Shown here one piece after another: positions 9,206 to 49,890 of a stretch of DNA of 64,000 nt. The DNA lies in NCBI GenBank assembly GCA_031292255.1, contig JARLHN010000031.1, positions 1-64,000 on the forward strand, given 5' to 3'. Under the pieces are notes generated by a model, which did not search any database, had not been told where the DNA came from, and saw only the letters and a list, made by a program, of their open reading frames with translations. How positions within the stretch are numbered: the stretch's first letter is position 1; every line of letters starts with the position of its first letter. This stretch comes from Oryzomonas sp. (GTDB lineage Bacteria; Desulfobacterota; Desulfuromonadia; Geobacterales; Pseudopelobacteraceae). Position numbers and translations under genes: made by a program.

Positions 9206-9290
9206 AGGAGGCTAGCGACAATGACTTGTTATTGCCAGCCCCTAACCATCGCTGTTAAGCCGCAGTGATTTTTCAATGGAGAAAGAATCT

Positions 9291-16433: not shown

Positions 16434-16619
16434 ATGGAACTTTTTAATATTATATCTGGTATAGCATCCATAGTATCATTAATAGTTTCGTTATTTGTTG
16501 CTTCTAAAGTAATTACTATTTCGAATAAATTTAATCTTGTAAATAACAGTAACGATTCAAAAAATATAACTCAAAGAATTCATGGTGATAGAAATACACA
16601 GATAGGTAAAACGAAATGA
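16434..16619 (+). CDS. 61-residue single-span membrane protein with GDRNTQIG tail, island gene 3
   Basis: The first half is one membrane helix (IISGIASIVSLIVSLFVASKVI); the tail ends KNITQRIHGDRNTQIGKTK. The GDRNTQIG motif resembles the SIDGNNNQQIAGN motif at the start of the next protein, a short Asn/Gln-rich beta-turn repeat. GGAG sits six bases before the ATG at 16434, which decides that start over the one at 16416. The stop overlaps the start of gene 4 (ATGA). It may anchor the complex at the membrane by pairing its tail with that of the next protein; this is inference. Confidence 0.6.
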   Translation: MELFNIISGIASIVSLIVSLFVASKVITISNKFNLVNNSNDSKNITQRIHGDRNTQIGKTK

Positions 16620-17173: not shown

Positions 17174-17673
17174 TTGTCTATCACCCTGCATATGACGTAT
17201 CACATTGTCTCTATAGAATGCTCCTCTTGCTAGAAAACTTACCAAATAATGATATAGAATGGGAGCGACTTCAGTTATTAGATTTTTTAATTCTTTTCCC
17301 CTCTTTATTAAAGAACATATCATTCCCATCAGAGCTTAGGTCGGCTCGAAAAACATTAACAAACATACAAGAGCCATATGAAAACATACCTAACCCAACA
17401 CGTTTGATGTTTGAATTAGATAATATACAAAAAGAAAGTGTATCATCATTAATCGCTAGAGGTTTCATTGATAAAGACAAAATCTATAATAACATTGTAT
17501 CAAGAACAAATGTAGAATTGCCTATGGAATTATCAAATAAAATGCTTAGTGATAATGTGGTTAAAGAACCATGGTTTTTACTGCTAGTAAACAATTTGTC
17601 TATATTAGACTTTTATGGTGCTAAAGGTTTAAAAGCAAGAACAGGTATGATGGAGTATCGATATGATATATAA
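17170..17673 (+). CDS. ABC-three-component system middle component, island gene 5
   Basis: 167 residues, mainly helical, with YHPAYDVSHCLYRMLLLL at the start, ERLQLLDFLILFPSLLKNI, and PTRLMFELDNIQKESVSSLIARGFID. These features (aromatic start, LLDF-LFP motif, a late LMFELDNIQ segment) match what I know of ABC-3C middle components, small adaptors between the ATPase and the effector-side protein. It overlaps gene 4 by four bases and the ATPase gene by eleven. Function beyond adaptor is unknown. Confidence 0.72.
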   Translation: MIVYHPAYDVSHCLYRMLLLLENLPNNDIEWERLQLLDFLILFPSLLKNISFPSELRSARKTLTNIQEPYENIPNPTRLMFELDNIQKESVSSLIARGFIDKDKIYNNIVSRTNVELPMELSNKMLSDNVVKEPWFLLLVNNLSILDFYGAKGLKARTGMMEYRYDI

Positions 17674-20372: not shown

Positions 20373-20651
20373 ATGAAATATGAGTGGAATGAAGCCAAAA
20401 ACGCTCTAAATGTCGAAAATCACGGTTTTGACTTCAATGATGCTCATGAGTTGTTTGAAGGCAATAGGCTGATAATCCCTGATGATAGGAGAGATTACGG
20501 CGAGAAGCGGTTTATCACTATTGGCCATATCAATGACCGTCTGATGGTCTTGCTCTATACCCAAAGGACACCGGAAACCATAAGGATAATTTCTCTACGA
20601 AAGGCAAACAGCCGTGAAAAAGCAAGATTTGAAAAAACAATCAAAAACTGA
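20373..20651 (+). CDS. brnT: BrnT-family ribonuclease toxin
   Basis: 92 residues, the family length. The BrnT core is evident: EWNEAKNALNVENHGFDFNDA at the N-terminus (family WDxxKxxxNxxKHGxxF, here with Asn-His), then RRDYGEKRFITIGHINDRLMVLLYTQR and a C-terminal TIRIISLRKANSREKARFE with the basic residues of the RelE-like fold. BrnT cleaves RNA and is neutralised by BrnA. Its gene overlaps the antitoxin gene by 38 bases. The toxin lies at the right edge of the AT-rich island and may help stabilise it. Confidence 0.9.
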   Translation: MKYEWNEAKNALNVENHGFDFNDAHELFEGNRLIIPDDRRDYGEKRFITIGHINDRLMVLLYTQRTPETIRIISLRKANSREKARFEKTIKN

Positions 20652-20930: not shown

Positions 20931-21761
20931 TCATTTCGCTATCTCCACGAACACGGCCAAGCTCCGTTCAACCTCCACCATTGTATCCACGCCAATGCTC
21001 CCGAATGCAGAGCCGGGCAGGTGTTCTTGGCTTCCTGGAAAGTGTCGTTCAATCAGGACCGCTTTGGGTAGCGGTAGCGCTGCTGAACGGATTTCAAACG
21101 CCAGTGCCGCGCAGTAATTGAGCGGTACGTCCATATCCATGACGCGCCAGTTGCATTCGGTTGAGGGATGAGAGTTGAAGGTTGAGATCGTTGACGCTGC
21201 GGTAAGCAAGGGGACGCTGAAGCTGCCGCCGGGTAGTGAAAACCCCCTGCCGCATGCTTTCAGACAGGCTTCCTTACAGACCCAAAAGCGGTAGAAGGCT
21301 TCCACCTGCCGCGAAGCAGGCAGGGCAAGCAGTTCTTCTTGTTCCTGCCGGGAGAACGCCAATCGCGCCATATCATGAATGGCCTTGCCCGGGTCGATCC
21401 TTTCGATATCCACACCGACCTCGACACCGGTGCTAACCGCCAGAACCATCATCTCGTCCGCGTGCGACAGGTTGAAGCGAAGGTCCGCCGCGCCATCCGC
21501 CAAAAACGGCTTGCCGTGTTCTCCCGTGGCAAGCGTCACGTCCGCGGGATCGATGCCAAGATACCCCCCCAGTATGTCACGCAGCATTCCCCGTCCGGCA
21601 ATAAAGCGGTTTCTCGTTTGGGCGCTTTTCAGCCGTCCTGCCCGGTCAGCCTCGTTTTTCGAGAGCAGATGCTCAAAACGGGTCAACTCCGATGTTTCTT
21701 GCGGCAGGGTCAAACAGTACAGGTGTATTTCGCCGTCAAGCGGCCGGGGGGAGGGGTTCAT
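20931..21761 (-). CDS. Sfp-type 4'-phosphopantetheinyl transferase
   Basis: Transfers phosphopantetheine from CoA to the serine of carrier proteins. 276 residues, Sfp/EntD size. The signature motifs are GVDIERIDPGK (near residue 115) and FYRFWVCKEACLKACGRGF (near 155-173), with LRFNLSHADEMMVLAVS ahead. It is the last gene of the lipid operon, overlapping oleD by four bases, so it most likely primes the four ACPs of the PfaA-type synthase, playing the part of PfaE in Shewanella-type clusters. Confidence 0.92.
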   Translation of the reverse strand: MNPSPRPLDGEIHLYCLTLPQETSELTRFEHLLSKNEADRAGRLKSAQTRNRFIAGRGMLRDILGGYLGIDPADVTLATGEHGKPFLADGAADLRFNLSHADEMMVLAVSTGVEVGVDIERIDPGKAIHDMARLAFSRQEQEELLALPASRQVEAFYRFWVCKEACLKACGRGFSLPGGSFSVPLLTAASTISTFNSHPSTECNWRVMDMDVPLNYCAALAFEIRSAALPLPKAVLIERHFPGSQEHLPGSAFGSIGVDTMVEVERSLAVFVEIAK

Positions 21762-22753
21762 GCGGGATGAGCTTGCAGCGACTGGCGCAGCCGCCGCAAT
21801 CCCTCATCGATGGAAATCTCGGGGGTGTAGCCGAAGTCGCGGCGGGCGGCGCTGATGTCGAACCAGTGGGCAGAGGCAAGTTCGTGGGCGACAAAACGGG
21901 TCATGGGCGGTTCGCCGGATAACCTGAGGCAGCTCCACAGACCTTCGCAGATGCAGCCGATGGCGAAAGCGAGTTTCGGCGGAATGCTGCGGGTAACCGG
22001 AGGAACCGAGGCCGCGTCGAGGATGCGGTTGACCATATCCCAGAGCGGCAGCGGCTCGTTATTGCTGATGAAATAGCAGTTGCCCGCGACGCTGCCGCCG
22101 GGGGAAAGCATGTCTGCGGCTTGGAGGTGGGCACGGGCGGCGTTGTCCACATACACGGTATCCACCATGTTGGGGCGGGTGCCGATCCGGCGCAGTTTGC
22201 CGGCACGCCCCTTGGCAATGATGCGCGGAACCAGGTGATTGTCGCCCGGCCCCCAGATCAGGTGGGGACGCAGGGCCGTTACCGCCAGTTCCGGAGAGTT
22301 GGCTGCCAGTACCATTTGTTCGGCCAGGGCCTTGGTTGCCGGGTAGTATGCTTCATAGGAATCAGGGTAGGGGAGCGACTCGTTGCCGCCTTCCACATCG
22401 CTGCCGTCGAAGACGACACTGGGCGAGCTGGTGTAAACCAGCTTGCCGGTGCCGTTTTTCAGGCAGGCGGCTATCACATGCTTGGTGCCGGCCACGTTGG
22501 CCTGGTAGAAATCATGGTAACGCCCCCAGATACCGGCCTTGGCGGCGACATGAAACACCAGGTCGCAGCCCTTGACCGCCGTGGCTACCGCATCCGCATC
22601 CTCCAGCATGCCGCTTGCCTGCTCCACGCCGAGCGATGCCAGGGCCGGATAGACACCGCGCGAGAAGCTGCGCACCTCATCGCCCCGTTCGCGCAGCATC
22701 CGGACGATCGCACCGCCGAGAAAACCGCCCCCTCCGGTTACCAGCACCTTCAT
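21758..22753 (-). CDS. oleD: OleD-type NAD(P)H-dependent beta-ketoacid reductase
   Basis: 331-residue extended SDR. The Rossmann motif TGGGGFLGGA lies at residues 6-15, and the catalytic segment is YTSSPSVVFDG with YYPATKALAEQ (YxxxK). OleD reduces the 2-alkyl-3-ketoacid formed by OleA to the hydroxy acid. Family identity would be uncertain alone (3-beta-hydroxysteroid dehydrogenase relatives look similar), but it follows oleA, oleB and oleC in one operon with four-base overlaps on both sides. Confidence 0.9.
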   Translation of the reverse strand: MKVLVTGGGGFLGGAIVRMLRERGDEVRSFSRGVYPALASLGVEQASGMLEDADAVATAVKGCDLVFHVAAKAGIWGRYHDFYQANVAGTKHVIAACLKNGTGKLVYTSSPSVVFDGSDVEGGNESLPYPDSYEAYYPATKALAEQMVLAANSPELAVTALRPHLIWGPGDNHLVPRIIAKGRAGKLRRIGTRPNMVDTVYVDNAARAHLQAADMLSPGGSVAGNCYFISNNEPLPLWDMVNRILDAASVPPVTRSIPPKLAFAIGCICEGLWSCLRLSGEPPMTRFVAHELASAHWFDISAARRDFGYTPEISIDEGLRRLRQSLQAHPA

Positions 22754-24387
22754 GACCGTGCCTTCTCTGCCCAGACCGCCAGTTTTTCACGGAATATCTT
22801 GGCATTGTGACGGATATCGACCGGAAAAGCGGGATGGAAGAGAATCGTGCGAATGTTGTGCGTGTGGGGATAGAGGCTGCCGAGTTCGAGAAGTGCCGTG
22901 CGGATTCGCTCTTGTTCCGGTTTTCCGGCCTTCTTTTCCAGTTCCACGCAGAGCACCGGCTGTTGGCTGCCCGGCATGCCCACGCCCACCAGCGCGGTAC
23001 GGAAGACCGCCGGATGGGTGTTGAATACGCCCTCCACCGAAACGGTAAAAAGAGTCTCCCGCGAGGTTACCACGCGGTGGGATTTGCGTCCGCAGAACCA
23101 GATGCGGCCGCTGTTGTCCCGGTAGCCGACATCGCCCATGCGGTGCCAGACGCCGCCGTCGGCATCGGGTATTTTTGCCAGCCTGGTGGCGTCGGGCCGG
23201 TTCAGGTAGGCGCGGCTGACCTGCGGCCCGCGCACGGCGATCTCGCCGACTTCCAGGGGGGGAAGCGCCATTGTGTCGTTCCATGCGGCTATAGGGGCGT
23301 CGCTGATCGGAATAATGGCGAGGGAGATGCTCTCTACCGGCCGGCCGACACAGACACCATGCCCTTTGCCAGCCATGGCCCCGGTTTCGGCCAGGACTTC
23401 GCGGCTGCCGATGGAGCAGACCGGCAACGCCTCGGTGGCGCCGTAGGGGGTGAAAATTTCGGCATCGTCGGGGAGCATTGCGGCAAAACGTTCCAGTACA
23501 GCGGCCGGGACGGGAGCACCGGCGGAAATGACCCGTTTGATATGGGGAAACTGGCTGCCGTGGGACTCGCCGAAACGGCCGACCCGATTCAACAGGGCCG
23601 GGGAGCCGAACATGGTCGTGGCGGAATATTCGGTTGCCGGACCCAGGATCTTGCGGGGATCGACCGATCCGGGGCGGGTGAAATCCATCTGCGGGATCAG
23701 GGCCGTCATGCCGAGGGCCGGTGCAAACAGGGCGAAGAGCGGAAAGGTCGGAAGATCGACCTCGCCGGGGCGGAAATCGTACATTTCCCGCAGGGTCTCG
23801 ACCTGGGCCGCGAACGTTCCATGGGTATAGACGGCACCCTTGGGGGCGCCGGTGCTGCCGCTGGTGAACAAGATGGCGGCCACATCGTCACGGCAGGTGT
23901 TCGCCGCAACAAACGGTGCCGGTTGGGCACAGCCGCGCAGTTCGTCGAGTGGGACGCCGCCCCAGAAGGAACTGCCCCCCACGACGACGGTGCTGCGGAT
24001 ACTGGCGCGTCCCCAGCCCAAAAGCCGCCGGGCCACATGCGCCTTGGGAATGCCGAAGAAGGCTTCCGGTTCCGCCTCGGCAAGACACCCCTTCATGTTC
24101 CGCGCCCCGATGCCCGGATCTATGAACACCGGTACGGACCCGGCCTTGAACAGGGCAAAGGTAATGGCAAACAGCTCGGGAGAGGGCGGGACCAACAGCG
24201 CAACCCTGGTGCCGCGGTCAATGCCGATCCGCCCCAGCCCGTCCGCAATACGGTCGCTGTCCCGATCCAGTTCACGAAAAGTCAGGGAACGCTTTTCCTG
24301 CGGAAAGATGATGGCCGGCGTATCCGGCTGTAACCGGGCCATTTCGGTCAAGGGGCGGGCAATGTTGACGATCTCAGTCGCGGCCAT
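22750..24387 (-). CDS. oleC: OleC-type beta-lactone synthetase (AMP-dependent synthetase family)
   Basis: 545 residues of the ANL adenylating superfamily. The P-loop AAILFTSGSTGAPKGAVYTH lies near residue 170-190, followed by FTPYGATEALPV and the GDVGYRDNSGRIWFCGRKSH hinge motif. OleC converts the 2-alkyl-3-hydroxy acid to a cis-beta-lactone using ATP. It lies four bases after the oleB stop, with oleD overlapping its end. In some actinobacteria oleB and oleC are fused; here they are separate, as in Xanthomonas and Shewanella. Confidence 0.92.
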   Translation of the reverse strand: MAATEIVNIARPLTEMARLQPDTPAIIFPQEKRSLTFRELDRDSDRIADGLGRIGIDRGTRVALLVPPSPELFAITFALFKAGSVPVFIDPGIGARNMKGCLAEAEPEAFFGIPKAHVARRLLGWGRASIRSTVVVGGSSFWGGVPLDELRGCAQPAPFVAANTCRDDVAAILFTSGSTGAPKGAVYTHGTFAAQVETLREMYDFRPGEVDLPTFPLFALFAPALGMTALIPQMDFTRPGSVDPRKILGPATEYSATTMFGSPALLNRVGRFGESHGSQFPHIKRVISAGAPVPAAVLERFAAMLPDDAEIFTPYGATEALPVCSIGSREVLAETGAMAGKGHGVCVGRPVESISLAIIPISDAPIAAWNDTMALPPLEVGEIAVRGPQVSRAYLNRPDATRLAKIPDADGGVWHRMGDVGYRDNSGRIWFCGRKSHRVVTSRETLFTVSVEGVFNTHPAVFRTALVGVGMPGSQQPVLCVELEKKAGKPEQERIRTALLELGSLYPHTHNIRTILFHPAFPVDIRHNAKIFREKLAVWAEKARS

Positions 24388-24390
24388 TTT

Positions 24391-25284
24391 TTACGGCTCC
24401 GTCCGGTCGAGAAACCCGGAGATCAGCGGAACGACTTCTTCTTTGGCGTCCTCAAGGATATAGTGGCCGCAATCCGGGTAACCGTGAACTTCGGCATCGG
24501 GAAAACGTTGTCGCCATTCGGCCAGAAAGTGCCGGTCGAACACGAAATCCCGCTCGCCCCAGCAGATCAGCATCGGCAGGGTGCTGAACCGCCCGATTCC
24601 GTCGGAAACGGTGCTGACCAGATCATAGCCCCGGTCAGAGGGAAACAGCGGAATATCCTGCACGAACCGGAGCGTGGCAATGCGGTTGCGCCATGAATCG
24701 TACGGGAGCCGGTAGAGGGCGCGGAGTGCCGGGGACATGGGATTACGCTTGCACCCCACACGGGCGGCACCGGCGCTAAAAGCGTTGAAGCCGCGCACCA
24801 GCAGCGTGCCGAGCACCGTATCACGGCAGATGAGCAGGCTGAGCGGGAACGGTTTGCAGCCCGGCAGGTGGAATGCACCGGTATTGAGTATCACCAGGCG
24901 CGCAATGCGCTCGGGATGGCGTACGGCATAGGCCATCCCGATCATCCCGCCCCAGTCGTGAACAACGAGGGTGATATTCTCCATGACCCCGAGAGTGTCG
25001 AGCAGTCGTTCCAGATCGGCGACGCGGCGGGAGAGCGTGTACTCATAGCGGTCATCGCCCGGCTTGTCGGACAGGCCGCAGCCGATATGATCGGGCACAA
25101 TGCAGCGATACCGGTCCCGCAGCGCCAGCACCAGATTGCGGTAATAGAACGACCAGGAGGGGTTGCCATGCACCATCACCACCGGCGCGCCGGTCCCCTC
25201 GTCGAGGTAATGATACCCCAGGCCGTCAAGATCCAGGCGTTTTCCGTCAAAGGGATATTCTTTGTTTAGTGCGCTTTCTACCAT
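24391..25284 (-). CDS. oleB: OleB-type beta-lactone decarboxylase (alpha/beta hydrolase)
   Basis: 297 residues, close to haloalkane dehalogenases. The oxyanion region is VHGNPSWSFYYRN, the nucleophile is Asp110 in VVHDWGGMIG (Asp, not Ser, as in OleB and dehalogenases), and the catalytic His lies in DCGHYILEDAKEE near residue 277. OleB removes CO2 from the beta-lactone to yield the cis-olefin. It overlaps the oleA end by seven bases. Without the neighbours it would be called haloalkane dehalogenase-like. Confidence 0.92.
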   Translation of the reverse strand: MVESALNKEYPFDGKRLDLDGLGYHYLDEGTGAPVVMVHGNPSWSFYYRNLVLALRDRYRCIVPDHIGCGLSDKPGDDRYEYTLSRRVADLERLLDTLGVMENITLVVHDWGGMIGMAYAVRHPERIARLVILNTGAFHLPGCKPFPLSLLICRDTVLGTLLVRGFNAFSAGAARVGCKRNPMSPALRALYRLPYDSWRNRIATLRFVQDIPLFPSDRGYDLVSTVSDGIGRFSTLPMLICWGERDFVFDRHFLAEWRQRFPDAEVHGYPDCGHYILEDAKEEVVPLISGFLDRTEP

Positions 25285-26321
25285 TCCATCCCCAGCATCA
25301 GGCAGTTCAATCCGCTGCCTATTCCAAGAAACGCCACCTTGTCGCCCGCCTCCAGGATGCCCCGTTCGTCGGCAATGGCAGCGGTCAGCGGCAGGGACAC
25401 GGTGCCCATGTTGCCCAGATATTCATACGTGGTGAAGTCTTTTTCCGCAGGAATGTCGAGCGACTTGAGGATTGCGCTTTGATGGGCGGAACCGACCTGA
25501 TGACAGACCACCTGGTCAACATCCTCGGTTTTCCAGCCGACCTGCGGGAGGAACGCTTCCCAGGTGCGCCGGCCCAGTTCGACGCCGTAATTCATGACAT
25601 TGACACCGTCCGTCGACATGGTCTGCGTGTAGCCCCCTTTGCCGTCCGAGATGACACCCCACAGGCAGAGCCGATGGTGTTCCGGGGCGGTCTGGGTAAT
25701 GCCGCCCAAAAGCTGCCTGCGCGTGGCGCCCGAGAAGGAACCGTCGGTCAGCAGAATTGCCGCGGCGCCGGAACCGCCGGTCAGGGTCGCCAGCGAAGCG
25801 GCAAAATGCTGCATCGTCCGTTCCTCCAGCATCCGGGCAATCATGATGTCGTTGATCTCGCGGGCGCTCTCGCAGGAGACCACCAGCCCTGCCTTGATCT
25901 GCCCCAGCTCGATCCGGTTGGCCACGTCGAGAATACCGTTCAATACGCCGAGGCAGGCGTTGGAAAGATCAAACACGGCGGTATTGCCGCCGATGCCGAG
26001 TCCGGCTGCCACGCGGCAGGCGGTGGCCGGTTCGAACTGCTCACGGCAGACACCGGCATAGATCAGTGCCCCGATATCGTCAGCAGAAACCCCGGAGGAA
26101 AGCATCACTTTCCGGGCAGCGGCAATGGCGCCAAGGGAAAGCGGATAACCGGGCTCCCACCAGCGGCGCTCCTTGATGCCGGTCAACGCCTGCAACTGTC
26201 CGGGTGCGATGCGCAGATAGCGGTACAGAGACTCCAGGCGGGTCTCCAGTTCTGCCGTGGTGACAACGACCGGTGCCAGTTCGTAGCCGAGCGCCTCGAT
26301 GGTGACTTTTCGGTACTTCAT
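25278..26321 (-). CDS. oleA: OleA-type thiolase: head-to-head acyl condensation
   Basis: 347 residues, KAS III/thiolase fold. It condenses two activated fatty acyl chains without decarboxylation first, giving a 2-alkyl-3-ketoacid. The catalytic Cys is C123 in LSNACLGVLNG, His is H274 in VVCHQVGSAHQ and Asn is N304 in YLGNMGTVS. The second-channel glutamate typical of OleA, 26 residues before the Cys, is present as E97 (REQFEP), which separates it from FabH. The start at 26321 is chosen because the frame further up runs into a repeat element and has no homology. It is separated from the PfaC-type gene by that repeat. Confidence 0.93.
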   Translation of the reverse strand: MKYRKVTIEALGYELAPVVVTTAELETRLESLYRYLRIAPGQLQALTGIKERRWWEPGYPLSLGAIAAARKVMLSSGVSADDIGALIYAGVCREQFEPATACRVAAGLGIGGNTAVFDLSNACLGVLNGILDVANRIELGQIKAGLVVSCESAREINDIMIARMLEERTMQHFAASLATLTGGSGAAAILLTDGSFSGATRRQLLGGITQTAPEHHRLCLWGVISDGKGGYTQTMSTDGVNVMNYGVELGRRTWEAFLPQVGWKTEDVDQVVCHQVGSAHQSAILKSLDIPAEKDFTTYEYLGNMGTVSLPLTAAIADERGILEAGDKVAFLGIGSGLNCLMLGMEW

Positions 26322-26350
26322 GTCAACAACTCCATTTAGACTCTTGCAAA

Positions 26351-26466
26351 TTGACTCCCCCTCCCTTGACGGGAGGGGGTAGGGGGGTGGGTGAAGCTGC
26401 AACACGCCGATATCTCGGCAAACTTCCCCCCCACCCTAACCCTCCCCCGCAAGGGGGGAGGGGATT
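26351..26466. repeat. Palindromic C/G-rich repeat between pfaC and oleA
   Basis: Two hairpins, CCCCTCCCTTGACGGGAGGGG on the left and CCTCCCCCGCAAGGGGGAGG on the right, enclose GGTGGGTGAAGC and CTTCCCCCCCACC arms. The same element occurs in opposite orientation at 49891-50007. The flanks also form an inverted pair, GACTCTTGCAAA (26339-26350) and TTTGCAAGAGTC (26476-26487), the latter inside the last codons of pfaC. It interrupts the operon with strong secondary structure. Confidence 0.85.
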
Positions 26467-26468
26467 TT

Positions 26469-29400
26469 CTAGACTTTTGCAAGAGTCTCCATTGTAATGG
26501 TAAAATCATTCATCTGATAAATCGTCTTTCCATCCACGGACAGGAAACCATCCGCGGTCATAATCCGTTTCCGATCATCCACGGCGGTAATCCAGGCGGA
26601 AACAGTTACCCGGCTGTTGGTCGGCACAACCTGGCCGCGATAAAGCCAGCGGTGTTTCCGCTCACGCGCCACGGCCGATACGGCCGCTCCATTCTGCCAT
26701 CCCCAGCGTTTCACGGCCGCAAACTTCATCAGCTGGATGAACGATTCCAGTCCCAACGAGCCGGGCGTTACCGGGTCCTCGTAAAAGTGCGCCTTGAAGA
26801 ACCATTCATCCGGATCCACATCCTTGATGCCACGGATGTACCCGAGTCCGTTCGGGCCGCCATCGGGAACGAACAGTTCGATACGATCGATCATGGCCAG
26901 CTTTTTATCCGGGAACGGAGCACTGTCCGGATAGGGGAGGGCGCTGCCCCGCCCGGTCTCATCCGTTGTCGGCAGATACGGCTGGGCGTCACGGATGCCG
27001 ACCTGATTGGCCAGCGCCTCTTTGGCAAAGAACCCGAACATGGTTTCGCCTTCGTAGAGAACACCGTGTTGGTCGGCAACGCTGAAGCCGAACTCCTGGA
27101 TGATCATGCCGCCGCTGGTGGCAACCTTGGTCATGGTGGCGCAACAGGTCAGCATGCCGGTGTCCGGCGCCACGGCACGGTGCTGCACGGCGGTGCCACC
27201 CAGGTTGCGGAAGGAGATATCGTTCGGGGTGGTCAGCGCCGAACCCACATACGCGGCCAGCCAGCCGCACGGCTGCAACGCCGCTTCCAAAAGGACGCAA
27301 AACGGCATGCGCGGCTGGCGTTCGGCGGCAAAGAACCAGGCATCGGCCGGCAGATCATACTGGGCTTCAACCATGGCGCCGGCGGTCATCTGCCACGGTT
27401 CGCCGCGCACGGCGGTGACGCGGTCCATGAACTGGAACGGTGGCCCCGGCAGGCGGGCAATCTTGCGTTCAGCGTCGAACACGCGGTAACGGTCGCCGAA
27501 TCCTTCGGACGGGTTGCCGTTACTGTAGGCCATGATCTGTTCTTTTGTATAGATGGCGGGTTTTATCCCGCCCTGATCGTCCGTCGGCAGTCGGGACGCG
27601 GAAGCGGACCAGAGCGCCCGAAGCTGTTCCAAGGTCGTTCCGGTCAGGCGGGCCGACATGCCGGTGATCTCGACAATCGGCTTGCCGTCGGCGTACATCA
27701 GGGCATCCACGATCACGTACGGCTCCGGACGGTAGCCGATTTCACGGATCGTGACCTCATAGGTAACGACTTTGGTGCTTTCCAACACCTGACCGCGACA
27801 GCAGAGTTTGCTGGCCACGCCCGGCACCGGTTCCCAGACGGAACCCCCCGATTCAGCCACCCACCCCAGCCGCAGCAGGTAGATGCGGAGTGTGTGCATG
27901 CAGCACTCGTACATCAGGGTGCCCGGCATGACCCGGTCATCGACGAAGTGGCAGGTGATGAACCAGTCCTCCGGGTGGATGTCCGCTTCGGCCCTGATAA
28001 TGCCGATGCCGCAGCGTCCCCCGGCCGGATCGATTTCGATGACGCGATGGACGAGGCGCATCCTGCCGCCCGGAATCGTCAGCGGTCGGGACAGTGCCAG
28101 CCCGGTGAACAACGGCCCGAAACAACCGGCCAGATCGCCGTCGCGCAGTTTGTCGAGCTGTGCCGCATCGTACCCTTCACGCGCCGGAGGCACCAGATTC
28201 TGCCAGTCGGTCGGGCGGATGCCGACCGTGGGGCGCAGATCCAGCGCGGGACGGACAATGCCCTTGCCGGCGTCCAGTTCCTGCTGGCTGAAGAACCCGG
28301 CGCAGCCGTCGCGCATGGACAAAAGCGGCCAGCCATTCACCGTGGCCTCGAAGAAGAAGCGGAACAGCCAGGTGTCCCCCTGACGGAAGAACCGCTCGAT
28401 GCGGATGTCGTAATGGATTGTTTCGCCCGGTCCGGGCAGGCCGCGGTGGAAGGTGACCACGGCGTCGAGCAGTCGGTAGACCGCCACTCCACGGGTAATG
28501 AAATCGATGCCGAGATACCCGGAAAGGAACAGGTCGGCCTGACCGGCTTCCACGGCAATACAGGTGGGGATACGGCCACCGTCCAGATACCAGGCGCCCG
28601 GATGGATGTCATGTTCCGTTACGACCCTGCCGTGGGTCATGGAGCGTGGTTCACCCTCGACGCTCATGATCCGGTCCACCAGCATGAGCGGTTCATCCGG
28701 CAGCCGGACACGGGTAGGGAAGCCGTCCACCTCGGCGAATTCGCGGCCAAGCATCCGGCCGACCGAACCGCGGGCGAATTCGAAGCACAAGTCGCGGTTG
28801 AAGGCAACGTTCTTGCCGGCCGATATTTCTCCTCCATCAACACGGGCAGGCATTCCCTGAGCTGGGTGGAATGGAGCGGCGTCCATGGGTGCATCATCCC
28901 CAAGCGCCTGCAGCAGCGACATTTCCAGGGCAAGAGCCTGCGCCATCGAACGGGTCACCGTCTCGCCGGCGGCAAGGAACGCCGCATGGGCTTCCGTATA
29001 GCTCTTCCTGGACCGGGCCAGTTCATGTATCAGCGAATCGGCGGCGTTATCATGGGGAATCGGAACAGTCGGCATGGCGGCCGCAAAAACCTGTGACTCC
29101 GCAGACATATCCGGCACGGCTGCCCGTTTGTTCGCCTGAGCCGCAGGCGGCTGGGGCGGCTGAAATGGCGCGCCTCCGAGAGCGACACGTACCGTTTTCG
29201 AGGCGTTTGGGACGGTAGCGCTGCCGCGTGGCACATCAAAGAACAACGACAGGTCAACCGGCACCCGCTCGGCGATCAGGTTTGCCATCATCCTCAGTAC
29301 GACGGATACGGGATCCTGTCCGGCAAAACAGGCGGAGCGGGCCAGGTGCGGCCGCTTACCGAGGATACGGCCGATCATGCGGCTGCATGATGCACCAGGC

Positions 29401-33407: not shown

Positions 33408-36400
33408 CAGGCTACTTCCAACTCTACGCACCCCGGTTGTACCAGTTGATTACGCCGGAAAGCCTTTTGCAGGGAAGGGTCGATGACGCACTCGTAATTT
33501 TCCAGGCGAGCAATCAGTTTGCCGCTGGTCCGGTCAAGAAATTCGATATCGGCGGACGCACCATAACTCCGTTCCGCAGTGACCCTGATCACGATCTGGG
33601 CGCCTTCACGGGGGAAGTTCTCCTGGAACTGGCGATACCTTCCGGCGAACGACGGAAGGGAACCGGAACCGGAGCGTTCGAAACTCCAGAGGATCATCAA
33701 CTGAAAGGCGCAATCCACGACAAGCGGATCGGTCAACCAGGTATTCCGCAGCGGCTGTTTGATCCAGACCCCGGGTTTCGGGGCAGCCTTGGCCAGTGCG
33801 GTAATTCCCTTGGGAGAGCAGCCGCCGACCTGTTCGATCCCTTTCAGGTCCGACCCGTGGAAGAGACGCTCATGGTCGTAGATGGTGTCGTTGCCCGGAG
33901 TATATGGTGAGGTCGGGACATCGACAATGGAGCGAATCCCTTCCGGCAGCTTGGATGCAAGCACGATCTCGGCGCGAACGTGCAGGAAGCTCTGTCCGTC
34001 ACCGGTGCTGCCGGTCAGTTCGACCGGAACGACGAAGAGGGACTCATGTTTTTCGGCGCGGCCGGCCATGATGCGGAGCGTGCAGGTGCATCCCTGATCG
34101 AAGATTACCCCCTTGCAGATGCGCAGGTTGTTGAACCCGTGGAACCGGAAGCCGGGATTGCCGTGCAGGGCGCCGTGAGCCAGCCACTCAACGGCCATGG
34201 CCATGGGAAGAACAGCCTTGCCGTCAATCACGTGGGAACGGATGAAGGGGTAATCCTCAACGGTCAGGTTCAGGTGGAATGCCTCGGTAAGCGGTGTCTC
34301 CGGAGCTGGCGGGGCAATTGCCAGCGAACTGGCGGTTACCCCCGCCAGGGCAATGATTTCAACCGGTTCACGCGTGGCGGCAATCTCACGAACCAGCAGA
34401 TGGCCGCCTTCTTTCATGCCGATCAGACCGATCCCTTCACCGGCAAAGACCTTTTTCAGCGATGGAGTAACCATGCCGCCATCCCATGGTCCCCAGTTTA
34501 TGCTGACGGTCCGGCACGCGGAACGGCGGCGCGACTCGGCCTGGGCCAGCTTGTTGAGCACTTCGTTGGCAACGGCGTAATCAACCTGGCCGCTCCGGCC
34601 AAAGCGGCCCGTCGTGGAAGAAAACAGGGCAATAAAGCGCAGGTCGTCCTGCGTGGTTGCGGCAAGCAATGCCCGTAATCCCTTCACTTTGGTGCCGTAC
34701 ACCAGGGAGAACTGTTCCAGGGATTTATCGCTGATGAGTCGATCGGCCAGAACCCCGGCGCCATGTACGATACCCCGGATGGTACCGAACTCCCGGCGGA
34801 TTTCGGCAAGCAGTGCGAAAACGGCGGCAGCATCACGAATGTCCACGGAGCGGTATATTGCCCGGCCGCCTGCCTGTGCGACTTTCGCCAATGTTTCCTT
34901 GAGTTCCCGGCCGGCGGTGATGGCTCGGTATTGTTCCTCAATCTCCCTGGGGTGGAGTTTTTCAGCGGTGTGCTCAAGGATGGCCCGTTTTATCTGGCTC
35001 TCATTCTCTAACGATGCCAGCCATTCCGGTTCCGCCCGGAGTTCCCGGCTGCGTCCCAATAGGACCAGCAGCGGCTTGTAGGCTGCTGCCAGCGCAACGG
35101 CTGCCGCTGCCGTCACCCCGCGCCCCCCTCCGGTGATTACGACAACATCTCCGGCGTGTAATGGTTCGGCGCCCGTTTGAGGCTGCTCCGGAAGGTCAAT
35201 CGTCTTCAGGGTGGTTCTGCCTGCCGGCGTCAGGCCGACTTCCAGGGGGCCGTCAAGCAAAAGCTCGCTCGCAACCGCTTCGGCCTCTGCCGCATAATCG
35301 GCAAAATGCCATAGATCGATCGCTTTACAAGATACTTCGCCCCATTCATGGGCCGCCGTCTTTGCCAAACCGGCAAGACCGCCGGAGAGCGGGTCGGATA
35401 GAGCGGTATTGGTTCCGCAACCGAAGGAACCGTCCAGGCGGGAAATTGTAGCAAACAAGGCGCCGCCGTTTTCTCCGGACCTGCGCAGGGCAGTGGCAGA
35501 ATTTTTCAGGAGCAAAAAGGCATTTTCGTAAAATTTGTCATCGGTTCCGCCCGAGGGAGCGCAGATCACCAGACCAGCAAGATCGGCCCCGGAGGCGTTC
35601 ATAAACGCGTCCTCGATACGAACCATCAGAATGTTATGCCCGGTAGCACTTAACAGGGCACATAGTTTGGCGGAAAAATCCGAACCGTCATCCGTAATCC
35701 AGATTGTTCCTGTATCCGCCAATGGCAGTTTCTGTGCCGGAGCGGTCAGCGGGACCGGTACGATCGTGCTTCGGTTGACCGTATGGACGGAATTGCCGTT
35801 GTCATCGGATTCGTCGGCAGCGTTTACAGCGTGTGAAGACGCCGGTCCATTCCCGGCCGCCGGAGTGGCGGCACCGGCACTCAGATGGCGGGCAATTTCA
35901 CCCAGCGTATGCAAGGTGCCCAGATGCTCGGGGCCGATGACCGGTGAACCGGGGAGGCGTTCCTGAAGTGCCGACAGGATCTCGACCCGTTTGATGGAAT
36001 CTATGCCGAGATCGGATTCCAACCCCATTTCAATTTCCAGCATCTCCACCGGATAACCGGTTTTCTCGCTGACTACCGCCAGGAGGATTTCAGTAATGTC
36101 GGACAGTGAGGCGGGTGCGACGCCGCTCACCCGGCAGTCAGCCGATATTGGAGCCGAAGCAGCGCCTGCGCCCAGATGGGCGGCAATTTCACCCAGTGTG
36201 TGCAAGGTGCCCAGATGCTCGGGGCCGATGACCGGTGATCCGGGCAGGTGTTCCTGAAGCGCCGACAGGATCTCGACCCGCTTGATTGAGTCGATACCGA
36301 GATCGGATTCCAGCCCCATCTCCATCTCCAGCATCTCCACAGGATAGCCGGTCTTCTCGCCGACTACCGCCAGGAGGATTTCAGTAATGTTGGACAGTGA

Positions 36401-39400
36401 GGCGGGTGCGGCTTCGCTTACCCGGCTGTCAGTCGATGATGGAGCCGAAGCTGCGACCGCACCCAGATGTGCGGCAATTTCTCCCAGTGTGTGCAGGGTG
36501 CCCAAGTGTTCCGGTCCGATGACCGGTGAGCCGGGGAGGCGTTCCTGGAGCGCCGACAGAATCTCGACCCGCTTGATTGAGTCGATACCGAGGTCAGAAT
36601 CGAGTCCCATTTCCATTTCCAGCATTTCCACTGGATAGCCGGTCTTCTCGCTGACCACCGCCAGCAGCATTTCGGCGATGTTGGACGGTACGGGGGACGT
36701 TCCGTTCACAACCGGGGTGACTATTGATGCAGAGGTGGGACCGGCGCCCAGGTGGGCGGCAATTTCACCAAGGGTATGCAGGGTTCCCAGATGCTCGGGG
36801 CCGATGACCGGTGAACCGGGAAGGCGTTCCTGAAGTGCCGACAGGATTTCGACTCGCTTGATGGAGTCGATGCCGAGGTCTGAATCGAGTCCCATGTCCA
36901 TCTCCAGCATCTCAACCGGGTAACCGGTCTTCTCGCTGACCACCGCCAACAGTGTTTCGGCAATCCGGTCCGATTTCGGCTGAGCAGACGAAACAGCGGT
37001 CCCGGCAGGTTTGACCGCGGGTGTCACGAACGCAGTGGTTGCCGACGGAAGAACGGCCGAGGCAACCGCGGTTGAGGATGTTGTCGGAAACGATGCCGGC
37101 GAAGAAGTGACGCCCCCCCCCTGAAGAATCCGCTGCTGCTGTTCGAGCAGCATCTGGATGGTCTTTGCGGCGGTATCCTGTCCTTCCAGGAAGCGGCGGT
37201 GAAGCTGGGCGGTCTCGTCCTGAATCCGCGTAAGCGCCGACATCCCTTCCCGGGTGACCTTCAGGGACTCGGCCAGGGCATCGCGGGATACGGCTGATGG
37301 AGCCGCCTGTGGAGCCGGCGTAGCTGTGGCGGCAGGCAGGGAAACGGGTGTGGCAGCGGCCGGCATTACTGTCGGACGAGGAGGTGCCGCAGGGCGTTTT
37401 GCCTTTGGTTTGATATAATTCGCACCGCTCAGGTGCATGGTCAGCGCCGGTTTTTTGCCGATGGCATGCGGAGCGGGGCAATACCCTTCATCCCAGCCGG
37501 TCAGGGTAATATCATGGCCAAGCACAGCCAGCTGAGCCAGGCAGCGGGCCAGATCGGCAACCCCGGAGCGTCTGCCGACGGATGCATCAAGTGCGACAGT
37601 GGTATGTGGACGGCCGTCAAGTATGGCGGATACAAGTCCGCTGAGACGAGCTCCCGGACCAATTTCCACAAATGTACGGACTCCCGCGGCATACATGGCT
37701 TCAATTTCGGCAACGAATTCGACCGGACGGGCCAGTTGTCCGGCAAGCAGTGCTGCGGCTTCGTCCGCCGCGACCGGGTACACGGCCGCAGTACTGTTCG
37801 CATAGACCGGAAGCGACCCGTCCGCAATGGCGATTTCCGACAGGGCAGCCAGCAGCGGGGCAGCGGCATCGGCTACCAGTGGGCTATGGAATGCCGCGGC
37901 AACGGTCAGGCGTTTGCAGGAAAGTTTAGCGGCAGTACAAGCCTCGGCGGCGCGGGCGATCTCGGCGCTGCTGCCGGAGAGAACGGCCTGGTTCGGCGCA
38001 TTGCGGTTGGCTATGACCAGATCGAGTTTTTCATCGCTGATCAGCTGCCGCACATCGGCCAAAGGCGCGGACACGGCCAGCATGGTGCCCCGGTCGCCAT
38101 CGCCGGAGGCCATCAATTGTCCGCGCAGGCGGGACAATTGATGGAACGAGGTTTCATCAAGCCGTCCAGCCGCACAGAGGGCGGTAAGCTCCCCGTAGCT
38201 GTGACCGGCAGCGGCATCGGGTGCAAAGCCGAACGACTCCAGAACCCGCAGGGCGCCGAGGCTGACCGCGCCGATGGCGGGCTGGGCGGCGTCGGTGGCG
38301 CGCAAAGCTGCATCCCCGGCATCCCGGTCAGCGTCACTGAATGGGGTAGGGGGATAGATCAGGTCGGACAGGCTGCTGCCGGTAGACGTGCCGAACTCCC
38401 GGTCCGCGGCGTCAAGACATGCCAGCATGGCAGGGAAACTACAGGCGAGATCGCGCAGCATCCCGGTGTACTGAGCGCCTTGACCGGGGAACAGCATGCC
38501 GACCTTGCCGGGTACGGCACCGGTTGCATACCAGGCGCCGTCAGGGGTATTCCAGGAAGCGTCCGGTTGTTTGCGAAGCATGGTCACGACGTTATTGCAG
38601 AGCGATTTCAGTACGGTTTTTCCCTGCTCGACGACCAGCGCCAGACGGCACGGGGCGTTCGTGTCAAAGGATGAGCGGAGCTCTGCCCCCATGGCGCGGA
38701 GTTCACTCCAGACGACCGTTTCGGCACAAGCGGCAAGCGCTTTTTCCAATAACAGGGTATCGCTGGCGGAGAAGGGGAGTATCTGGACGGTGCCGTCCCA
38801 GTCTGCCACGGTGGCGACAGGTGTATATTCTTCGAGTACCACATGAAAGTTCGAACCGCCGAAACCGAGGGCACTGACCGCTGCCCGGCGCGGCTGCCCG
38901 TTGCGGGAAAGCCAGGGCCGCTTGTGGCTGGTGAGATAGAACGGTGATTGTCCGTCTGAAACCTCATGCAGCGGCTGTTGCACCTTGATGGTGGGGGGAA
39001 TGACCTTGTGGTGCAGCGCCAGGGCTGCCTTGATCATTCCGGCGGCACCGGCGGCCGCCTTGGTATGGCCGATCTGCGACTTGACTGAACCGAGAGCGCA
39101 CCACGGTTTGGAGGCTTTGCCGTAGATCTCGCGCAGCGCCGATACTTCCACCGCATCACCAACCTTGGTGCCGGTGCCGTGGGCTTCCACCAGGGCGATA
39201 CTGTCCGGAGAAACGCCGGCGCGCTGATACGCGTCTTTGATGGCCTTTATCTGGCCGGACGCACTGGGGGTGTAGATCGCCTCGCCCTTGCCGTCACTGG
39301 AAGAACCGACACCGCGAATCACCGCGTAGATCCGGTCTCCGTCGCGCTCCGCATCGGCAAGTCGCTTGATTACCATGATGCCGAGCCCTTCACCCAGGAT

Positions 39401-40231
39401 GGTGCCGTCGCCGGAGGCGTCGAACGGCTTGATATCGCCGCTTGGCGACAGCGCCGGGGTCTTGCTGAAGCACATATACATGAAGATATCGTTGAAAGTG
39501 TCGATGCCGCCGGTGACCACCATATCGGACTTGCCGGTTGCCAACTCCATTGACGCCAAGTGCAGGGCACTGAGCGAACTGGCGCAAGCGGCATCCACCA
39601 CACAATTGGTACCCCCCAGGTCGTACTGCTTGCTGATCCTTCCTGCAACAACATTGCCGAGCAGGCCGGGGAAGGAGTTTTCCTGCCACGAAACATAGGA
39701 ATCGGAGATGCGCTGCACAACGTCTTCTGCGGTTGCATCGTCCACCCCGGCGTCCTTGAGGGCCGTTCGCCAATGGGGATGCCCGAGACGCGCGGCCAGA
39801 GGGATAACCAGTTCAAGTGTGCCGGTAACCCCCAGTATGACGCTGACCCGGTCGCGGTCATAGCTCCGGTCGGCGCCATAACCGGCATCTTTCAACGCCT
39901 GGCCGGTCGCCACCAGTCCCAGCAGTTGCGAGCTGTCTATCGCTTCCATAGTGGCGGGCGGAATATTGTATTCCATCGGATTGAAAGGAACTTCGGACAG
40001 AAATCCGCCCCGGCGACCGTACGTCATGTCCGGTGCTTTGGGATCCTGATTATGGTAGTCCGCCACACGCCAGTGGGTCGCCGGGATGTCGCTTATGGCG
40101 TCGATCCCTTCGCGAATATTAGCCCAGTACGTGCCGCTGTCTTCGGCACGGGGGAAGAAGCATCCGATTCCTATGATGGCCAGCGGTACGGTGCTGGGTG
40201 TGGTGGTCAGATTGGCATTGGCCTGTGTCAC
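33407..40231 (-). CDS. pfaA: PfaA-type polyunsaturated lipid synthase (KS-AT-4xACP-KR-DH)
   Basis: 2274 residues. Domains: ketosynthase 1-470 with Cys216 (VDAACASS), His351 (EAHGTGT) and His389 (KSQIGHT); malonyl-type acyltransferase about 575-895 (FPGQGAQYTG; Ser678 in GHSYGE); an Ala/Pro-rich linker; four tandem ACPs (about 1085-1455) with phosphopantetheine serines at 1123, 1218, 1315 and 1412, each in SDLGIDSIKRVEIL; a ketoreductase (about 1640-1970; VVITGGGRGVTAAAA, FSSTTGRFGRSGQVDYAVAN); and a C-terminal PKS-type dehydratase (about 2010-2274; HVIDGKAVLPMAMAVEW). The protein builds the chain iteratively together with the next two gene products. It overlaps pfaD and pfaC by three to four bases. 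Confidence 0.95.
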   Translation of the reverse strand: MTQANANLTTTPSTVPLAIIGIGCFFPRAEDSGTYWANIREGIDAISDIPATHWRVADYHNQDPKAPDMTYGRRGGFLSEVPFNPMEYNIPPATMEAIDSSQLLGLVATGQALKDAGYGADRSYDRDRVSVILGVTGTLELVIPLAARLGHPHWRTALKDAGVDDATAEDVVQRISDSYVSWQENSFPGLLGNVVAGRISKQYDLGGTNCVVDAACASSLSALHLASMELATGKSDMVVTGGIDTFNDIFMYMCFSKTPALSPSGDIKPFDASGDGTILGEGLGIMVIKRLADAERDGDRIYAVIRGVGSSSDGKGEAIYTPSASGQIKAIKDAYQRAGVSPDSIALVEAHGTGTKVGDAVEVSALREIYGKASKPWCALGSVKSQIGHTKAAAGAAGMIKAALALHHKVIPPTIKVQQPLHEVSDGQSPFYLTSHKRPWLSRNGQPRRAAVSALGFGGSNFHVVLEEYTPVATVADWDGTVQILPFSASDTLLLEKALAACAETVVWSELRAMGAELRSSFDTNAPCRLALVVEQGKTVLKSLCNNVVTMLRKQPDASWNTPDGAWYATGAVPGKVGMLFPGQGAQYTGMLRDLACSFPAMLACLDAADREFGTSTGSSLSDLIYPPTPFSDADRDAGDAALRATDAAQPAIGAVSLGALRVLESFGFAPDAAAGHSYGELTALCAAGRLDETSFHQLSRLRGQLMASGDGDRGTMLAVSAPLADVRQLISDEKLDLVIANRNAPNQAVLSGSSAEIARAAEACTAAKLSCKRLTVAAAFHSPLVADAAAPLLAALSEIAIADGSLPVYANSTAAVYPVAADEAAALLAGQLARPVEFVAEIEAMYAAGVRTFVEIGPGARLSGLVSAILDGRPHTTVALDASVGRRSGVADLARCLAQLAVLGHDITLTGWDEGYCPAPHAIGKKPALTMHLSGANYIKPKAKRPAAPPRPTVMPAAATPVSLPAATATPAPQAAPSAVSRDALAESLKVTREGMSALTRIQDETAQLHRRFLEGQDTAAKTIQMLLEQQQRILQGGGVTSSPASFPTTSSTAVASAVLPSATTAFVTPAVKPAGTAVSSAQPKSDRIAETLLAVVSEKTGYPVEMLEMDMGLDSDLGIDSIKRVEILSALQERLPGSPVIGPEHLGTLHTLGEIAAHLGAGPTSASIVTPVVNGTSPVPSNIAEMLLAVVSEKTGYPVEMLEMEMGLDSDLGIDSIKRVEILSALQERLPGSPVIGPEHLGTLHTLGEIAAHLGAVAASAPSSTDSRVSEAAPASLSNITEILLAVVGEKTGYPVEMLEMEMGLESDLGIDSIKRVEILSALQEHLPGSPVIGPEHLGTLHTLGEIAAHLGAGAASAPISADCRVSGVAPASLSDITEILLAVVSEKTGYPVEMLEIEMGLESDLGIDSIKRVEILSALQERLPGSPVIGPEHLGTLHTLGEIARHLSAGAATPAAGNGPASSHAVNAADESDDNGNSVHTVNRSTIVPVPLTAPAQKLPLADTGTIWITDDGSDFSAKLCALLSATGHNILMVRIEDAFMNASGADLAGLVICAPSGGTDDKFYENAFLLLKNSATALRRSGENGGALFATISRLDGSFGCGTNTALSDPLSGGLAGLAKTAAHEWGEVSCKAIDLWHFADYAAEAEAVASELLLDGPLEVGLTPAGRTTLKTIDLPEQPQTGAEPLHAGDVVVITGGGRGVTAAAAVALAAAYKPLLVLLGRSRELRAEPEWLASLENESQIKRAILEHTAEKLHPREIEEQYRAITAGRELKETLAKVAQAGGRAIYRSVDIRDAAAVFALLAEIRREFGTIRGIVHGAGVLADRLISDKSLEQFSLVYGTKVKGLRALLAATTQDDLRFIALFSSTTGRFGRSGQVDYAVANEVLNKLAQAESRRRSACRTVSINWGPWDGGMVTPSLKKVFAGEGIGLIGMKEGGHLLVREIAATREPVEIIALAGVTASSLAIAPPAPETPLTEAFHLNLTVEDYPFIRSHVIDGKAVLPMAMAVEWLAHGALHGNPGFRFHGFNNLRICKGVIFDQGCTCTLRIMAGRAEKHESLFVVPVELTGSTGDGQSFLHVRAEIVLASKLPEGIRSIVDVPTSPYTPGNDTIYDHERLFHGSDLKGIEQVGGCSPKGITALAKAAPKPGVWIKQPLRNTWLTDPLVVDCAFQLMILWSFERSGSGSLPSFAGRYRQFQENFPREGAQIVIRVTAERSYGASADIEFLDRTSGKLIARLENYECVIDPSLQKAFRRNQLVQPGCVELEVA
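35870..36979 (-). repeat. Four tandem ACP-coding repeats in pfaA
   Basis: Four units with spacings of 95, 97 and 97 codons between phosphopantetheine serines. The cores (KTGYPVEMLE to TLHTLGEIAAHL) are almost identical in protein and closely similar in DNA; only the linkers (about 25 residues, Ala/Ser-rich) differ. Near-identity suggests recent duplication or gene conversion. Confidence 0.92.
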
Positions 40232-41751
40232 GTGAGGTACTCCTTGATGTGTATGTCTTCAAGCGGTTCGATACGGAAATCGGCGGGAAGTTTGATGTCC
40301 TGATACCGGAGGATGTTGGCGCGTGTGAGCAGGGCCGCCCCGAACAGAAGATTTCGAGCAACCGTCGCCACCCGGCGCTGCTCCGGGGTCGCCAGAAAGC
40401 TACCGGCAGTCCATTCATTGAATGCGCCCATGGCCGGTCCGCACCAGACCTGGTAGTCCATTGTGCGAGTTGAGGTGCCATCCTTGGCCCAGTGGGCGGC
40501 CTGTCCCAGATACCAGCGGAACACGAGCGCCATGAGGTGTTTTGGATCCCGCTCCGCACGCTCGACCTGGCATGGATCGCGTTGCAGGAAAAAGGCCCGG
40601 GTGTCGCGCCAGATATCGGCAATGGGGGCCAGGAATAACGTTTTTTCGAGTTTGTCCCGTTCAGGACCGGGAATGCTCTCCAGTCCGTCATGGCTGCGAT
40701 ACATGTCGTACAGTTTGGCTGCCCTCATGGGAAACATGGTGCCGCGCTTCAATACCTGTACAGAAACGCCCATTTCGAACATGTCCGCGGCCGGCGCCAT
40801 GATCACATCGGCTTGACGGGTTTCCGCCAGCAACCGGCGTACAACATCGGATGTTCCGGATTCGACGCAGGCTTGGTTGACGGAACCGGTCATGATGTAT
40901 GCGGCCCCCATGGCAAATGCGGCGGCAGCGGCGGCCGGGGTGGCGATTCCGCCGGCCAGTCCGACCCGCAGCTTAACGGCATACCCGAATTTCTGTTCCA
41001 TCCGGCCGGCCAGAGAGGCGATGGTCGGGAACAGGGCGATGGCCGGGCGGTTGTCGGTATGACCGCCGGAATCGGCTTCCGCGGTGACTTCCTGCGCCAT
41101 CGGTATCCGGGCGGCCCACTCAGCCTGCTCGGCAGTGATGGCCCCCTCGTCCAAGAGCTGTCGCAGGAATTTTTCCGGTGGCGGCGAGAAGAATTTTTCG
41201 GCAAGCTCTTCCCTCGATACCTTGGCTATAATCCGGTTCGGTGCGATGATCGTCCCATCAGCGGCGCGATGGATGCCATGGGTGCGGTAGCGGACCAGTG
41301 GGAGCGTCAGGGCCAGAAATGCGGATGCCTCCACCAAACGGACGTTCTTGTGAATGTACAGTTCGGCAAGAGCAGCCTCCAGGTCCGGTTCGTGGGGTGA
41401 ATGTATCAAGTTGAAACCGCAGGGGAAACCAAAGACCGACAGCTTGTCCACAGCTGCTTCAACGGCAGAAAACCGTAGGCCGGCAGCTCCGAAAAAACCA
41501 AGCATTCCGGAACGCCCCAACTCCTCAGCCATGGCAACAGAGCTGATCCCTTTGGCCATTGAGCCGCCAAGATAGGGATAACGGATCCCGACTTCGCGGC
41601 AGAATTCCCGGTCGCCAAGTTGGTCCGGCATCAGCGGCGGGACGTACACGGCATGAGACTGGTTGTCCGGTCCCACGGAACTAATATGGACGGGGTGTGA
41701 AAGTTTCCGGAGAGCTTCAGTGATGTTGTGGTCTGTAACTATATGAATCAA
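40228..41751 (-). CDS. pfaD: PfaD-type enoyl reductase (FMN, 2-nitropropane dioxygenase-like)
   Basis: 507 residues. A trans-acting TIM-barrel flavoprotein that reduces enoyl intermediates in PUFA synthases. Characteristic parts are RYPYLGGSMAKGISSVAMAE, FFGAAGLRF, RVGLAGGIATPAAAAAAFAMGAAYIMTGSVNQAC (FMN site) and DVIMAPAADMFEMGVSVQVLKRGTMFPMRA. It is the first gene of the operon, as in myxobacterial pfa clusters where ER comes first. The start appears to be TTG at 41751, with AAGAG nine bases upstream. The AT-rich 326-base gap ahead (41752-42077) must hold the operon promoter. Confidence 0.94.
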   Translation of the reverse strand: MIHIVTDHNITEALRKLSHPVHISSVGPDNQSHAVYVPPLMPDQLGDREFCREVGIRYPYLGGSMAKGISSVAMAEELGRSGMLGFFGAAGLRFSAVEAAVDKLSVFGFPCGFNLIHSPHEPDLEAALAELYIHKNVRLVEASAFLALTLPLVRYRTHGIHRAADGTIIAPNRIIAKVSREELAEKFFSPPPEKFLRQLLDEGAITAEQAEWAARIPMAQEVTAEADSGGHTDNRPAIALFPTIASLAGRMEQKFGYAVKLRVGLAGGIATPAAAAAAFAMGAAYIMTGSVNQACVESGTSDVVRRLLAETRQADVIMAPAADMFEMGVSVQVLKRGTMFPMRAAKLYDMYRSHDGLESIPGPERDKLEKTLFLAPIADIWRDTRAFFLQRDPCQVERAERDPKHLMALVFRWYLGQAAHWAKDGTSTRTMDYQVWCGPAMGAFNEWTAGSFLATPEQRRVATVARNLLFGAALLTRANILRYQDIKLPADFRIEPLEDIHIKEYLT

Positions 41752-49852: not shown

Positions 49853-49890
49853 GTGCAATAGTACCTTGTAACACTTAAATTAACGGATAA

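Follow-up and report, generated by a model that had tools for sequence, protein, structure and literature searches.

We describe an eight-gene row on the minus strand of a 64,000-nucleotide stretch of DNA (hereafter the window) from a draft genome of Oryzomonas sp. in the Geobacterales (assembly GCA_031292255.1, contig JARLHN010000031.1, positions 1 to 64,000). The row joins a synthase of the polyunsaturated fatty acid (PUFA) type, encoded by pfa genes, to the hydrocarbon pathway encoded by oleA, oleB, oleC and oleD, and ends with a phosphopantetheinyl transferase (PPTase). We observe the genes, their order, their motifs and their conservation in relatives directly. By analogy with published systems, the row very probably represents the known Type I pfa-ole operon in a Geobacterales version that would produce a C31:9-like polyene hydrocarbon.

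In Geobacter bemidjiensis, pfaD, pfaA, pfaB, pfaC, oleA, oleB, oleC, oleD and pfaE are reported in tandem, and the organism makes a C31:9 hydrocarbon (PMC4882568). Shulse and Allen (2011) defined the Type I synthase and proposed that it supplies olefin precursors (PMC3098273). The arrangement has thus already been described in Geobacter and the window holds a well-formed but ordinary example; because related clusters are already in print, most of the novelty is removed. Two observations are added here, namely the affinity of a fused acyltransferase (AT) domain to PfaB and a conflict between the oleC and gyrB trees.

The original prediction for this DNA, made from the sequence alone, saw a synthase that supplies OleABCD and has a PPTase of its own, which is the reading published for Geobacter (PMC4882568, PMC3098273), and its guess that surveys of lipid synthases might contain related clusters was right (PMC3098273). 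Its statement that pfa and ole occupy separate loci applies to some hosts only; clustering of oleABCD with pfa is noted in PMC6463001, and the two adjoin in Photobacterium profundum SS9 (PMC6463001) and stand in tandem in G. bemidjiensis (PMC4882568).

Gene content and the fused acyltransferase

All eight genes are open frames with the expected motifs, running on one strand from position 41751 to 20931; coordinates and family matches confirm the predicted order from pfaD to the PPTase. The first gene, pfaD (40228 to 41751; 507 amino acids, with a TTG start as listed), encodes the enoyl reductase of a PUFA-type synthase, matching Pfam PF21607 and scoring 600.7 bits against the NCBIfam cut-off of 449.25 for TIGR02814. 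It is followed by pfaA (33407 to 40231; 2274 amino acids), assigned from Pfam, motifs and a TIGR02813 score of 1695.8 bits (cut-off 1010.1, NCBIfam), with ketosynthase (KS), MAT, four near-identical acyl carrier protein (ACP), KR and PS-DH domains. PfaA carries four LGIDSIKRVEIL motifs and a GHSYGE motif; a KS sequence of the synthase reads DAACASS. PfaA-family synthases above the TIGR02813 cut-off number one in the genome itself and none in 14 control genomes.

The third gene (26469 to 33431; 2320 amino acids) combines KS, CLF, PfaB-like AT and a FabA-like dehydratase region, according to Pfam, NCBIfam and PDB matches. It had been called pfaC, but it is a pfaB-pfaC fusion, hereafter pfaBC. 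By eye, no active-site Cys was seen in the second KS-like stretch (CLF), and the dehydratase region holds two FabA-like HF..D...PG sites.

The four putative Ole enzymes retain all expected active-site residues. The thiolase-fold head-to-head condensing enzyme OleA (25278 to 26324, from the ATG) scores 491.2 bits with NCBIfam NF006720 (cut-off 285), possesses its Cys, Glu, His and Asn, and has as its closest solved chains 3fk5 and 3row, both named 3-oxoacyl-ACP synthase III. OleB (24391 to 25284), the candidate beta-lactone decarboxylase, is an alpha/beta hydrolase near the haloalkane dehalogenases by Pfam, NCBIfam and its HDWGG motif, scoring 151 where those NCBIfam models need 241; its Asp and His are intact here and in 25 of 25 relative rows. 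OleC (22750 to 24387), an AMP-binding beta-lactone synthetase by family, reaches 730.7 bits with NF006754 (cut-off 478), two olefin beta-lactone synthetase models ranking next, below their cut-offs; a PDB search at 1e-40 found no solved relative. OleD (21758 to 22753), a predicted 2-alkyl-3-oxoalkanoate reductase of the short-chain dehydrogenase/reductase (SDR) family, carries a YPATK motif and has the OleD model NF042422 as its best NCBIfam match. Finally, the pfaE-like PPTase (20931 to 21761; PF01648 and PF22624, motifs GVDIE and WVCKEA) has an ACPS domain above the Pfam cut-off and falls below the cut-off of its NCBIfam model. We take the motif residues of these proteins to be catalytic, those of the AT on the basis of PMC12895367.

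Five of the seven junctions overlap (by 4, 25, 7, 4 and 4 nt), and the description of nearly all junctions as overlapping was slightly too strong, given gaps of 3 nt between oleB and oleC and of 144 nt, measured from the oleA ATG, between pfaBC and oleA. An SDR gene at 42078 was considered as a further member and dropped, having no match in the corresponding stretch of a relative (G004; G and L numbers are our handles for genomes and loci).

The best PDB match of the AT in PfaBC is PfaB of Shewanella baltica (PfaBs, 9ry8) at 1.1e-37, the runner-up standing at 7.4e-14. We compared 22 aligned AT domains from relatives, on 19 distinct contigs, with positions matched to PfaBs by hand from the alignment with 9ry8 and the catalytic roles of key residues taken from PMC12895367. 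The nucleophile Ser, the His and the Ile equivalent to position 429 are conserved in 22 of 22 rows, the Tyr preceding the Ser in 21 (Cys in the other), and the lid Glu in 18 (otherwise two Asp, one Arg and one Ser). The Arg of malonyl transferases occurs in none of the 22, its place being taken by Glu (12), Asp (7), Gln, Ala and Lys (1 each). Because the key residues of PfaB are kept and the malonyl-transferase Arg is missing in all rows, the residue pattern identifies the fused AT as PfaB-like, and two sites (the Ile and the lid Glu) assign it to the eicosapentaenoic acid (EPA) rather than the docosahexaenoic acid (DHA) type.

Relative to the marine EPA/DHA synthase (pfaABCDE), PfaA and PfaD exceed their family cut-offs here and a separate PfaB is lacking. 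Three traits of the Type I synthase are found, namely KS, CLF, AT and FabA domains in one 2320-amino-acid frame, relatives in Geobacter, and co-occurrence with ole. In a comparison made without a KS phylogeny, we found no difference from the Type I synthase as described in the available text of PMC3098273, which gives a pfaBC fusion, occurrence in Deltaproteobacteria, co-occurrence with ole, a sporadic distribution and the olefin-feeding proposal. The G. bemidjiensis cluster, from the same bacterial order as the relatives examined here, is alike in gene order; it lists pfaB and pfaC by name (PMC4882568), whereas the Type I pfaBC is a fusion according to PMC3098273, and the row in this host differs in carrying the repeat element between pfaBC and oleA described below. 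The enzyme set also resembles that of Shewanella and P. profundum SS9, in which chains from Pfa pass to OleA and yield a C31 polyene; there, PfaB is separate and EPA is also made (PMC6463001), whereas here the AT is fused into PfaBC. The pfa and ole operons of SS9 are separated by the thioesterase gene pfaT (PMC6463001); among the 20 flanking open reading frames (ORFs) scanned here, a subset of those present, none belonged to a thioesterase family.

Distribution of the gene row among relatives

We scored 97 genomes of the order for oleC (at least 588 bits) and pfaD (E 0.001 or better). Both genes were found in 70 genomes and neither in 24; two genomes had oleC without pfaD (G057, 90% complete, and G081, 81% complete) and one had pfaD without a strong oleC (G077), so that oleC is present in 70 of the 71 pfaD genomes. 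The co-occurrence gives a Fisher p of 2e-19, computed over genomes that are related rather than independent and in some cases incomplete. Both genes share one contig in 47 of the 70 genomes, and in 41 of these 47 pfaD precedes oleC by 14.8 to 18.4 kb in the same orientation, the genes in between not having been checked singly in all 41.

Gene order was then read in seven carrier stretches chosen for having pfaD and oleC on a shared contig (G004, G048, G053, G052, G044, G080 and G069). All seven display the order pfaD-pfaA-pfaBC-oleA-oleB-oleC-oleD, and six have the PPTase after oleD, the one lacking a PPTase match being G044. One more carrier stretch, the eighth (G086), stops before ole. We also examined 29 named loci with a related oleC, titled Geobacter or Geobacteraceae (17), Desulfuromonad (6), Deltaproteobacteria (5) and Lysobacterales (1); three of them duplicate the contigs of G004, G048 and G053, and gene-order matches counted from 38% identity upwards at E 1e-20 or better. 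The order pfaBC-oleA-oleB-oleC was found in 15 of the 29, some with 0.8 to 7.8 kb between oleB and oleC, and the short contig L055 has oleA to oleD. L061, from the cultured Geobacter argillaceus ATCC BAA-1139, is one of the loci that carry the cluster. Since it recurs in relatives, the eight-gene order is more than chance. The full row is common in this order of bacteria and is not universal: the genome search suggested by the original prediction recovers it repeatedly, but with exceptions in linkage and order that are given below.

Some named loci show further variants. L044, L045 and L046 carry an oleC-oleD-PPTase unit with no oleA or oleB in the upstream DNA examined (10, 1.8 and 3.6 kb, respectively), as if the row consisted of two blocks, pfaD-pfaA-pfaBC-oleAB and oleCD-PPTase. 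About 7.8 kb of other DNA separates oleB from oleC in L047, a Desulfuromonad metagenome-assembled genome (positions 2222 to 10000), and in L048 the 1.8 kb between them holds small ORFs that resemble toxin-antitoxin genes by eye.

Proposed pathway and alternatives

The substrate, product and location proposed here follow published relatives and general enzymology. The PPTase would activate the four ACPs of PfaA, and PfaA, PfaBC and PfaD would assemble the polyunsaturated acyl chain in repeated rounds of condensation with dehydration/isomerisation and only limited enoyl reduction. This chain, by analogy about 16:4, would go to OleA, perhaps via the PfaB-like AT, a hand-off that we infer. OleA would join two chains head to head, OleD would reduce the beta-keto acid, OleC would close the beta-lactone and OleB would release CO2; the result would be a polyene hydrocarbon of the C31:9 type, destined for the membrane. 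Calling the line dedicated, as the original prediction did, would draw on the co-occurrence with ole and the single synthase above the cut-off in the genome, not on chemistry. As for function, PMC4882568 discusses an antioxidant role of the hydrocarbon and terms it speculative.

The gap between pfaBC and oleA contains a GC-rich palindromic repeat element (26325 to 26490, ends approximate, minus strand) with 13-nt inverted arms. It is missing at the same junction in the nearest relative, G004, and in G048, where only a few bases separate the end of pfaBC from the oleA start. On inspection by eye, the element is flanked on both sides by a direct repeat of 7 nt, AATGGAG, and a GGAG is retained ahead of the oleA ATG. 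The element has at least 40 matches in its own genome, this copy counted, many of them partial or overlapping (40 of 68 candidates scored). Its RNA is predicted to fold at -95 kcal/mol (z -7.6), a stability equalled by 0 of 200 shuffles. The palindrome looks like an inserted repeat element that left GGAG before the oleA ATG. An oleA start at GTG 26405 was dropped, as this codon sits inside the element. A related copy also lies at 49889 to 50000 of the window.

Several observations weigh against a single, strictly conserved operon with a C31:9-like product. pfaD and oleC are on different contigs in 23 of the 70 genomes that have both, and six of the 47 same-contig pairs deviate in order or spacing (G066, 506 nt apart on opposite strands; G065, G018, G012 and G008, 21 to 29 kb; G006, 287 kb). 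Upstream of oleC, oleA or a same-strand pfaBC was not found in 13 of the 29 named loci; in seven of these (L041, L044, L050, L053, L060, L064 and L066) about 9 to 10 kb of upstream DNA is free of both, and oleC-oleD can therefore stand apart. The pfa genes of L064 adjoin oleC on the opposite strand, and L041 and L056 gave no oleD match at the match limits used. In this strain, the repeat element between pfaBC and oleA could uncouple the two parts of the operon on either side of it. At the protein level, OleC reaches 671.7 with a curated Ole equivalog model that is among its best models (cut-off 900), and OleD reaches 466.4 bits with NF042422 (cut-off 580). Because the Xanthomonas-type OleC model (671.7) outscores the Shewanella type (621.0), the Ole proteins here are not specially Shewanella-like. 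Moreover, the product proposed for this host is assigned from its genes and from published relatives.

We weighed three alternatives. The enzymes might make another product, such as a long ketone, a beta-lactone, or an olefin of different length or unsaturation; the scores of OleC and OleD below equivalog cut-offs, a product predicted from genes, the wide oleB-oleC spacing in L047 and the loci with oleC but no oleA and oleB nearby all leave room for this. We nevertheless consider it unlikely, as OleB is intact here and in its relatives, beta-lactone makers are held to be clusters without oleB (PMC7064751), and C31:9 is made by G. bemidjiensis (PMC4882568, PMC3098273). That the synthase chiefly supplies PUFA for phospholipids, with Ole diverting only a minor share of the chains, much as happens in EPA-producing Shewanella, strikes us as improbable. 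The AT does keep PfaB residues, including the EPA-type Ile in every row and the EPA-type lid Glu in most, and the C31 polyene of Shewanella depends on a Pfa synthase that also makes EPA (PMC6463001); on the other hand, pfaD is paired almost strictly with ole over the 97 genomes, G077 being the sole pfaD genome without a strong oleC, and for G. bemidjiensis the available text of PMC4882568 and PMC3098273 reports the hydrocarbon and neither reports nor denies PUFA. Finally, the repeat element might end or process the transcript, in which case the eight genes would be two transcription units rather than one operon here. The 144-nt gap with its very stable fold speaks for this, but no T run was seen by eye after the hairpin (no terminator scan was made), GGAG is kept before the oleA ATG, and oleA to the PPTase are tightly packed, which makes a split quite unlikely.

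A Type I pfa-ole operon leading to a C31:9-like polyene is thus the reading we favour. The 2011 proposal that the Type I synthase feeds Ole is borne out over many more genomes, and it points to a step still to be explained, the interception of the growing chain at C16. Because these operons unite pfaB, pfaC and ole in a single row and lack a stand-alone PfaB gene, they offer a clean system for a test of that interception. As a more speculative extension, which we hold to be possible though rather doubtful, the AT in PfaBC could act as the transfer device in an obligate hydrocarbon line, passing a chain of about C16 from the ACPs to OleA; the synthase of these strict anaerobes would then make no free or phospholipid PUFA, and the unit would move between genera as a metabolic cassette.

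Transfer between genera and the surroundings of the operon

The operon is found in two of the six genomes of the window's genus (G000 and G004), at the same site beside genes for an RND pump. As this draft genome yielded no rpoB, gyrB and dxs were used as markers. Trees were built for OleC (best 30 of 72 oleC-positive genomes) and GyrB (best 30 of 87 gyrB matches), and for none of the pfa genes. In the GyrB tree, the window's genus groups with those labelled g4, g5, g7, g8 and g9, and g6 forms a separate clade (100/100). In the OleC tree, the two copies of the genus join five of the eleven g6 copies (96/90). For OleC, approximately unbiased (AU) tests rejected holding together all eleven g6 rows (p 3.75e-82) as well as the g1, g5, g7 and g8 rows (p 6e-06). 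The same constraint on the five nearest g6 rows alone was not rejected (p 0.114), and the copies of the genus may lie either inside or beside those five.

Sequence identities agree with this conflict. They are 81% for Dxs, 88% for GyrB, 90% for PfaD and 89% for OleC in G048, and 87%, 91%, 73% and 64%, respectively, in G009. Because the OleC tree conflicts with GyrB and the identities agree, these comparisons indicate that the operon, or at least oleC and pfaD, moved between genera. Two non-carriers of the same genus, G002 (L096 and L097) and G003 (L098 and L099), keep the same flanks, with dxs and the gene at 11181 at one end and the RND pump at the opposite end, and have about 18 kb of other DNA in between. 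No empty operon site was found in these two genomes, and gain or loss is not directly readable there. The site behaves as if it were a hot spot of exchange.

The neighbourhood of the operon holds further genes. A BrnT-type ribonuclease toxin of a toxin-antitoxin pair (20373 to 20651) adjoins the operon end. Beside the operon, an AT-rich segment (16616 to 19564; GC 0.32 to 0.37) encodes a set of the ABC-three-component type, made up of CTD9, MC5 as the middle component and an AAA ATPase. Consecutive genes for squalene-hopene cyclase, an epimerase and Dxs (6032 to 11165) lie at a distance of about 10 kb from the hydrocarbon genes.

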